A stretch of 36,506 bases of DNA from Haliea sp. GTDB lineage: Bacteria; Pseudomonadota; Gammaproteobacteria; Pseudomonadales; Halieaceae. The notes under the pieces are model-generated. The model did no database searches and was not told where the DNA came from. It was given only the letters and a program-made list of their open reading frames with translations. Both the position numbers and the translations under genes were made by a program. Location: NCBI GenBank assembly GCA_002862985.1, contig PKCY01000215.1, positions 1 to 36,506 on the forward strand. The letters are read 5' to 3'. Below are positions 26,594 to 29,245 of the stretch, in pieces (position 1 is the stretch's first letter; each line of letters starts with the position of its first letter).

Positions 26594-27255
26594 TCACTTT
26601 TGACCGGGTAAGCAAACGCTACGAGGAAGGACACGATGCCTTGCGAGAAGTCAGTGTCAGTATAGATCGCGACGAGCTGGTTTTCCTCACTGGTCATTCA
26701 GGTGCAGGTAAAAGTACAATGCTGCGACTGATCATGCTGATGGATCGTCCCAGTCGTGGGCAGGTCACAGTGGACGGTCAAAACCTGGCGACAGTGCGTC
26801 CTCGTGGCGTTCCACAACATCGCCGCAACATTGGCGTTGTTTTTCAAAACCACCAACTGCTCTTCGATCGAACGGTTTTCGATAATGTGGCGTTACCCCT
26901 GATCATCGCGGGGTATGACCATCGTGAGGTGGGGCGCCGGGTGCGTGCCGCTCTGGATAAAGTGGGGCTACTTAATCGGGAACGGGCTATGCCACTCACG
27001 CTGTCCGGCGGAGAACAGCAGCGCGTGGGCATCGCCAGGGCTGTGGTGGGCAAACCTAAAATCTTATTGGCAGATGAGCCTACCGGCAACCTCGATCCGA
27101 TACTGTCGGCAGAGATCATGAACTTATTTGAAGCGTTTAATCAGGTCGGCGTCACGGTCTTGATCGCCAGCCACGACCTAATTCTGATCTCGCGGTTGCA
27201 GCATAGGATTATTACCCTACAGCAGGGACGCCTGGTCACCGGGAGCGCGCCGTGA
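26590..27255 (+). CDS. ftsE: cell division ATP-binding protein FtsE
   Basis: 221 aa ABC ATPase; Walker A GHSGAGKSTML, signature LSGGEQQRVGIARA, Walker B ILLADEPTGNLD; ATGA overlap with ftsY. Confidence 0.97.
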   Translation: MITFDRVSKRYEEGHDALREVSVSIDRDELVFLTGHSGAGKSTMLRLIMLMDRPSRGQVTVDGQNLATVRPRGVPQHRRNIGVVFQNHQLLFDRTVFDNVALPLIIAGYDHREVGRRVRAALDKVGLLNRERAMPLTLSGGEQQRVGIARAVVGKPKILLADEPTGNLDPILSAEIMNLFEAFNQVGVTVLIASHDLILISRLQHRIITLQQGRLVTGSAP

Positions 27256-28235
27256 TGGGTCGGCGCGAAAACCTTCGTCGCAAGGAAGGTGCCAGTCCCA
27301 GTGAGGCGAACCTCAGGGATCGCTATCATGGCTGGTTGCAGCACCACCGGCTTTCGGCCGCAGACAGCCTACTGCGAGTGTTGGATAATCTGGGCCCCAG
27401 CCTGCTGACATGGCTGGTGATCGGCATTGCCCTTGCGCTGCCGGTTGGATTGAACGTTTCCTTGGATAACGTAAACGATTTGAGCGCCGGATGGGATAGC
27501 CCCGCTCAAATCTCAGTTTTCCTGCAGGAGGGCATATCCGCTGACCGGGGAAACCAACTTGAGATAGAGTTGGGCGCGCGCGAGGATATTGCCCAGACAC
27601 AGTTTGTTTCAAGAGAAGAGGCTCTTGCCGAATTCAGTACCCTCTCGGGATTTGCCGATGTATTGGCCAGCTTGCAGAAAAACCCATTGCCCAACCTGAT
27701 ACTTATTACGCCGACTGACAACCTTCAAGGGTCGAGTGTATCTGCGCTGCGCGAGAGTATTCAGGGTATGCCCGATGTTGCTGAAGCCGTGTTGGATATG
27801 GAGTGGCTGCAGCGACTCAACAGAATCATGGAATTGAGCCGACGACTGGTAATGGCGATAGGGCTTATGCTCGTGGCGGGAGTGTTGTTGATTCTGGGAA
27901 ACACCATACGCCTGGCTATTGAGAACCGCCGAGATGAGATCGTCATCGTTAAACTTGTGGGCGGGAGCAACGCCTTTGTGCGGCGTCCCTTTCTCTACAC
28001 TGGTCTTTGGTATGGTGTCGGTGGTGGTGGACTGGCGGCTTTACTGGTTTCGCTTTCGCTGTGGTATCTGGAGGAACCGGTAGGTAATTTGGTACTGCTC
28101 TACGGGAGTGGGTTTCAGTTGCGCGGCTTGGGGGTGATGGGGGCTCTGAACCTGATAACTCTGGGCGGACTGTTGGGGCTTGGTGGTGCCTGGCTGGCGG
28201 TTACTCGTCATATTGCTAGCATTGAACCGCGCTAG
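27252..28235 (+). CDS. ftsX: cell division protein FtsX
   Basis: 327 aa FtsX-type permease downstream of ftsE with overlapping start/stop; GTG at 27252 or ATG at 27255. Confidence 0.95.
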   Translation: MMGRRENLRRKEGASPSEANLRDRYHGWLQHHRLSAADSLLRVLDNLGPSLLTWLVIGIALALPVGLNVSLDNVNDLSAGWDSPAQISVFLQEGISADRGNQLEIELGAREDIAQTQFVSREEALAEFSTLSGFADVLASLQKNPLPNLILITPTDNLQGSSVSALRESIQGMPDVAEAVLDMEWLQRLNRIMELSRRLVMAIGLMLVAGVLLILGNTIRLAIENRRDEIVIVKLVGGSNAFVRRPFLYTGLWYGVGGGGLAALLVSLSLWYLEEPVGNLVLLYGSGFQLRGLGVMGALNLITLGGLLGLGGAWLAVTRHIASIEPR

Positions 28236-28314
28236 TTCTTCGTTGGGCCGGCTGCAGGTCGGCGAGCATAAGCAACTGAATCTATTGAAGTAAATAATAC
28301 TTTTCTGCAAAAAA

Positions 28315-28343
28315 TTGAACTTTCCCGCTATTAGCACTCTAAC
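28315..28343 (+). promoter_or_regulatory. putative sigma70-like rpoH promoter (TTGAAC-N17-TCTAAC)
   Basis: -35 TTGAAC at 28315-28320 and weak -10 TCTAAC at 28338-28343, the latter inside the CIRCE element. Confidence 0.4.
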
Positions 28344-28357
28344 TTAAAGAGTGCTAA
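28331..28357. promoter_or_regulatory. CIRCE element (HrcA operator), perfect 9-9-9 inverted repeat
   Basis: TTAGCACTC-TAACTTAAA-GAGTGCTAA read directly; identical to the classical CIRCE consensus; 33 nt before the rpoH ATG (28391). Confidence 0.93.
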
Positions 28358-28390
28358 TATCCTTGTCCGAATTTGAGTGGGGGTCGAGAA

Positions 28391-29245
28391 ATGAAGAAGA
28401 GCCTACAGCCAGTTGATCAGATGGTTCCGGGAGCCAACCTGCCAGCCTATGTTCAGGCGGTCGGTACTATTGCAGTGCTGAGCATCGAGCGCGAGCGCGA
28501 ATTAGCAGAGGATCTCTACTACAACGAAAATTTGCAGGCGGCGCGCCAATTGGTAATGTCACATTTGCGCTTCGTGGTGCACATTGCGCGCAGCTATTCT
28601 GGCTACGGCCTCGCTGAGGCGGACCTGATTCAGGAAGGCAACGTGGGTCTGATGAAGGCGGTCAAACGCTTTGATCCTGAGAGAGGTGTGCGCCTGGTCT
28701 CTTTCGCAATCCACTGGATCAAAGCAGAAATGCACGAGTTCATTTTGCGCAATTGGCGCATTGTGAAAGTGGCGACCACCAAGGCACAGCGAAAACTGTT
28801 CTTCAACCTGCGCAGTGCTAAAAAGACCCTGTCCTGGTTAAACTCGGCGGAGGCACAGGCCATTGCTGATGACCTGAATGTTGATGTGAAGGAAGTTCAG
28901 CGTATGGAGGGTCGTCTGAGCAGTCGTGATCTGGGTTATGACCAGCCCACGGATGCGGAGGATGATAATGCCTGGCAAGCCCCCCAATATTATCTTGAGG
29001 ATCAAAGCTCTGACCCCGCGGCGGCGGTAGAGTCTGATGACTGGCAGGACAGTAGCGAGACACAGCTTCATAACGCCTTGGCCGATTTGGATGAGCGCAG
29101 CCGCGACATATTGTCTCAGCGCTGGTTGTCAGAGAAGAAATCCACACTGCACCAATTGGCGGCCCAGTATGGTGTTTCTGCGGAGCGTATCAGGCAGCTT
29201 GAACAATCGGCTATGAAAAAGCTGCGAACTTCCATCGCCGCTTAG
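28391..29245 (+). CDS. rpoH: RNA polymerase sigma-32 (heat shock) factor
   Basis: ORF 28373-29245; RpoH box QRKLFFNLRSAKK, region 2 EADLIQEGNVGLMKAVKRFDPERGVRLVSFAIHWIKAEMHEFILRNWRIVK, region 4 HTH; ftsYEX-rpoH order; ATG at 28391. Confidence 0.98.
   Translation: MKKSLQPVDQMVPGANLPAYVQAVGTIAVLSIERERELAEDLYYNENLQAARQLVMSHLRFVVHIARSYSGYGLAEADLIQEGNVGLMKAVKRFDPERGVRLVSFAIHWIKAEMHEFILRNWRIVKVATTKAQRKLFFNLRSAKKTLSWLNSAEAQAIADDLNVDVKEVQRMEGRLSSRDLGYDQPTDAEDDNAWQAPQYYLEDQSSDPAAAVESDDWQDSSETQLHNALADLDERSRDILSQRWLSEKKSTLHQLAAQYGVSAERIRQLEQSAMKKLRTSIAA

Follow-up and report, generated by a model that had tools for sequence, protein, structure and literature searches.

The heat-shock sigma factor gene rpoH of the marine bacterium Haliea sp. 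is preceded by a perfect CIRCE, the predicted binding site of the repressor HrcA, whose letters coincide with those of two promoter motifs. From the sequence and its conservation, we consider it very likely that this CIRCE is an HrcA operator overlapping two rpoH promoters, one of sigma-E type and one of extended -10 type, and that it would block both when GroEL is free. Sigma-32 would then probably be made only once the GroEL-dependent HrcA releases rpoH.

A perfect CIRCE between ftsX and rpoH

The window analyzed here is the whole 36,506-nucleotide stretch of the Haliea contig. On its plus strand, positions 28331–28357 read TTAGCACTC-TAACTTAAA-GAGTGCTAA, with exactly inverted 9-bp arms around a 9-nt spacer and 18/18 arm bases agreeing with the HrcA operator pattern TTAGCACTC-N9-GAGTGCTAA. 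The first-pass annotation had placed this repeat between ftsX and rpoH, 33 nt before the start codon; coordinates and arms were re-read exactly, and curated models confirmed both genes. Specifically, rpoH (28391–29245, plus strand) encodes a sigma-32 of 284 amino acids scoring 393 bits against NCBIfam TIGR02392 (cut-off 323), and its ATG at 28391 lies 33 nt past the CIRCE end. Its upstream neighbor is ftsX (27252–28235, plus strand), the last gene in the order ftsY-ftsE-ftsX (TIGR00439, TIGR02673, and TIGR00064 for the group). A CIRCE pattern with up to three mismatches matches nowhere else in the window, and 100 dinucleotide shuffles of the window gave no match.

In the 3.64 Mb assembly (329 contigs, 89.7% complete), exact CIRCE sites occur twice, at rpoH and upstream of groES (C2:40411–40437), while a reversed control pattern gave no matches in the whole assembly. 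The search for further sites proposed earlier thus yielded one more perfect operator, located at groESL, the constant target of HrcA/CIRCE regulons. A third CIRCE-like site with three mismatches (C287:153–179) lies within an open frame, and we discounted it as a chance match. The groES CIRCE adjoins a sigma-70-like promoter. At many Halieaceae groES regions, a TTGACT-N16-TAGAA promoter abuts the CIRCE on its upstream side; in the Haliea groES region and in L237–L256, the CIRCE is followed just downstream by a sigma-32-like CTTGAAA...CCCCAAT.

The assembly also encodes hrcA, whose presence was one of the checks suggested at the outset; the protein matches TIGR00331 with 314 bits (cut-off 197) as well as PF01628. 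A simple pattern search upstream of hrcA found no sigma-32-like promoter (TTGAA...CC). For dnaK, the assembly holds no match above the curated cut-off. The best hit (C128:958–2703) probably encodes a different Hsp70, such as HscA; dnaK itself apparently lies in a gap of the assembly.

Conservation of the operator and co-occurrence with hrcA

The closest relatives of this rpoH come from Halioglobus (the nearest being MAGs), Haliea, Parahaliea, and other Halieaceae. Because all are Halieaceae, the comparison with enterobacteria drawn in the first-pass annotation holds as one with a distant group. We read 90 Halieaceae rpoH upstream regions, two of which were cut by contig ends and left out. All of the remaining 88 loci have the CIRCE, with 17 or more of its 18 arm bases kept, so this refutation test proposed at the outset, like that for hrcA, did not refute the reading. 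These loci contain 56 distinct spacers; the arms stay constant while most of the spacer drifts, which argues that the arms are under selection. Among 100 Halieaceae genomes, 96 have rpoH above the curated cut-off and 98 have at least one CIRCE, most of them two. Single-contig genomes of the family (for example G034, G036, and G041) carry two sites only, with up to two mismatches allowed.

The arrangement extends to many other gammaproteobacterial families. Among the named relatives compared, every Halieaceae member has a CIRCE (17–18/18 arm bases) before rpoH, as do Ketobacter and a few others; none was found in Pseudomonas or Marinobacter. A composite GAAC-N8-14-CIRCE element is present in 47/245 genomes of the order and 89/369 genomes of a class sample; in a phylum sample of 299 genomes, a single match lies outside the class, at groES. 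Fetched element loci were upstream of rpoH in 29/30 cases from the order and 30/30 from the class sample.

Within the order, 68/245 genomes encode hrcA, and the gene strongly co-occurs with the element, being found in 41/47 element-positive versus 27/198 element-negative genomes. Fisher values overstate significance here, as species are not independent and the groES control used below has 20 sites only. An hrcA match was absent from six of the 47 element-positive genomes (G189, G237, G241, G289, G308, and G327), three of them >90% complete, which could mean a gap in the assembly, loss of the gene in the recent past, or divergence of the repressor. These six genomes would also fit a CIRCE that is vestigial or arose by chance and has no regulatory effect at rpoH. 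We regard this as extremely improbable: it is the arms and not the spacers that persist at all 88 Halieaceae loci and in many other families, and the shuffles put the chance expectation of a CIRCE match at zero.

A predicted sigma-E type promoter under the left arm

In the aligned upstream regions, GGAACTT stands at a fixed distance before the CIRCE and TAA opens the spacer. The conserved element reads GGAACTT-N15/16-TCTAA, its TC being the end of the left arm. This is the pattern of promoters recognized by sigma-E (RpoE/AlgU), with a GGAACTT-like -35, a gap of ~15–16 nt, and a TC(T/A)(A/G)A -10. Haliea has TGAACTT-N15-TCTAA on the plus strand at 28316–28342. The -35 TGAACTT (28316–28322; GGAACTT in most relatives) lies 15 nt before the -10 TCTAA (28338–28342), which is built from the last two left-arm bases and the first three spacer bases.

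GAAC occurs 13–16 nt upstream of the CIRCE in 81/88 Halieaceae loci, compared with a mean of 1.2 and a maximum of 6 when the upstream letters are shuffled. The third spacer base is A at 80/88 Halieaceae rpoH sites versus 0/20 groES sites of the family. In 50 loci from outside the family, gathered with a pattern permitting a GAAC–CIRCE gap of 8–14 nt, the gap is 10, 11, or 12 nt, being 11 in most of them; 44 of these loci have A as third spacer base.

The first-pass annotation had read this region as a sigma-70-like promoter, TTGAAC-N17-TCTAAC. Those letters are present; the sigma-70 identity was rejected because conservation follows GGAACTT and TCTAA and a scan of 28150–28450 found no consensus sigma-70 promoter. 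By its letters, the promoter under the CIRCE appears to be of sigma-E type, and the sigma-70 call needs changing.

The Haliea genome encodes the matching sigma factor, a TIGR02939 rpoE equivalog (310 bits). It is adjoined downstream by an RseA-like gene that matches RseA_N (PF03872) with 56 bits, above the cut-off, and scores under the cut-off of the full-length RseA equivalog model; we regard it as a probable rseA. Upstream of rpoE lies GAACTA-N16-TCTAT, which would fit autoregulation by sigma-E from a promoter sharing the specificity of the one predicted at rpoH.

A few Halieaceae carry the CIRCE without GAAC, so sigma-E input to rpoH is not universal. They leave room for a scheme in which HrcA binds but sigma-E is uninvolved: GGAACTT-TCTAA would serve another ECF sigma factor or be inactive, and the extended -10 promoter described below, which these genomes retain together with the CIRCE, would alone be used and repressed. 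We consider this unlikely, given that GAAC in its register and TCTAA show strong conservation across many families, hrcA-less relatives included, that the rpoE equivalog of Haliea is preceded by a matching promoter, and that rpoH of Salmonella is an established sigma-E target (PMC4577112). We thus retain sigma-E as the predicted user of the upstream promoter.

Two variants of the element were seen within the family. Luminiphilus-like loci and one other Halieaceae group (L166, L169, L171, L148, and L176) have a CIRCE and an extended -10 but no GAACTT, which suggests loss of the sigma-E input in these lineages. In some members of one genus-level group (L158, L163, and L170), TCTAA lies two bases further into the spacer of the CIRCE (CTCTCTAA), and the spacing from GAACTT to the shifted TCTAA stays 16–17 nt.

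An extended -10 motif in the right arm

The right arm of the rpoH CIRCE forms part of a second motif. In 87/88 Halieaceae loci, GAGTGCTAA and the three bases after it spell TG-C-TAAAAT or a close variant; the Haliea version is TG-C-TAATAT (TGCTAATAT, 28352–28360, plus strand). The final T of TGCTAAnnT, three bases past the arm, is found in 88/88 family and 50/50 non-family loci versus 2/20 groES sites, the groES control comprising 20 sites in all. The arm and its three-base extension fit an extended -10 promoter, presumably used by the housekeeping sigma factor. The left-arm TTAGCA (28331–28336, plus strand) may serve as a weak -35 at a spacing of 18 bp. Since CIRCE sites at groES are without the TAA and the +3 T, both features are attributable to the rpoH promoters rather than the CIRCE as such.

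The positions of the two promoters also bear on whether the inverted repeat could act in the rpoH mRNA, as a 5′ hairpin, an attenuator, or part of a thermometer, and not as a DNA operator. Inverted repeats near 5′ ends can stabilize mRNA, and transcripts starting further upstream would include the hairpin. The two rpoH starts are predicted near 28349 (about 28348–28350) for the sigma-E promoter and near 28367 (about 28366–28368) for the extended -10 promoter. Each thus falls within the repeat or past it, and the main transcripts would lack at least one of the arms. From 28349, where the mRNA is predicted to start, the sequence is no more stably folded than its shuffles (z = +1.19), and no terminator was found in 28150–28450. 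Moreover, the arms equal the HrcA consensus base by base, hrcA co-occurs with them, and some arm changes are uncompensated (L089, L107, and L133). We rejected a role in RNA as very unlikely and continue with the repeat as a DNA operator.

Tandem promoters in relatives lacking CIRCE

Pseudomonas, Marinobacter, and Stutzerimonas, which have no CIRCE at rpoH, keep GGAACTT-N15/16-TC at the same distance from the gene, with TGnTAnnnT ~35 nt downstream of GAAC. The operator therefore appears to have been laid over a tandem promoter. Read most simply, these alignments suggest tandem promoters that do not depend on the operator and a CIRCE placed over the pair in register, through either CIRCE gain in some lineages or loss together with hrcA in others. 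In Pseudomonas and relatives (L084, L073, L077, and L078), the rpoH extended -10 is enclosed in a short palindrome (for example GCAGTGCTACACTGC), located where a CIRCE would have its right arm. This palindrome may be a different operator or a CIRCE relic.

A model for rpoH control by free GroEL

GroEL keeps HrcA active in other bacteria, so free GroEL capacity would set the degree of repression. With GroEL free, HrcA would be folded and bound at the CIRCE, covering the sigma-E -10 and the extended -10 together and excluding RNA polymerase with either sigma factor. Both envelope-stress and housekeeping transcription of rpoH would thereby be blocked. When unfolded protein occupies GroEL, HrcA would lose activity and rpoH would be transcribed, with housekeeping and sigma-E activity determining the rate. 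The resulting sigma-32 would direct transcription of chaperone genes, including groESL, and newly made GroEL would reactivate HrcA, closing the loop. Because the groES CIRCE lies beside sigma-70-like and sigma-32-like promoters, HrcA release would raise groESL both directly and via sigma-32. The binding and repression by HrcA, the sigma factor assigned to each promoter, and the control of HrcA by GroEL are predictions drawn from motifs and gene content.

We give roughly even chances to a broader proposal, namely that in much of the hrcA-keeping Gammaproteobacteria, a 27-bp operator is fused letter-for-letter with both rpoH promoter cores. Sigma-32 synthesis would then be an AND gate requiring envelope stress (or housekeeping drive) plus loss of free GroEL. 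If true, this gate would be a widespread and undescribed alternative to the scheme of E. coli, where mRNA thermosensing and sigma-32 turnover provide most of the control of rpoH. The textbook account of sigma-32 control comes from this organism, which lacks HrcA. Direct gating of rpoH by HrcA in many gammaproteobacteria would wire the repressor-based and sigma-factor-based heat-shock strategies in series and let GroEL capacity set sigma-32 transcription. Operator bases that double as promoter elements allow precise, testable mutations and a clear evolutionary comparison with relatives that have the promoters but no hrcA.

Comparison with known systems

The first-pass annotation had cautioned that HrcA–rpoH links might already have been proposed, and one indeed was: in Geobacter sulfurreducens, a CIRCE at -51 of rpoH was predicted by comparative genomics (Rodionov et al. 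2004, PMC545781, Table 8). The CIRCE at rpoH is thus of a known kind, of which Haliea presents a variant. The two systems share the same perfect CIRCE at rpoH, with groESL as the other constant target. They differ in that Geobacter belongs to a distant lineage, the delta-proteobacteria of PMC545781, and has a further CIRCE at hrcA-grpE-dnaKJ; the overlap with a sigma-E and extended -10 pair is not described in the available text of PMC545781. That text also cites a 2003 study by Permina and Gelfand, which covers beta-, gamma-, and epsilon-proteobacteria and is the likeliest place for an earlier gammaproteobacterial report. A literature search for HrcA with rpoH promoters in gammaproteobacteria returned nothing relevant, and no description of the operator–promoter overlap or its spread was found in the literature searched. 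While a CIRCE at rpoH has been predicted elsewhere, the promoter overlap and its spread appear new, with priority uncertain.

Compared with classical HrcA–CIRCE systems at groESL and dnaK, Haliea has the same operator and repressor family and a perfect CIRCE at groES, but here the target is also a sigma factor gene and the CIRCE letters double as core promoter. The enterobacterial sigma-E dependent rpoH promoter, P3 in E. coli, is likewise of the GGAACTT...TCTAA type, lies downstream of ftsX, and connects envelope stress to sigma-32. E. coli, which gave no match as a control in our hrcA search, operates this promoter without HrcA, whereas in Haliea the corresponding -10 is built into the CIRCE.
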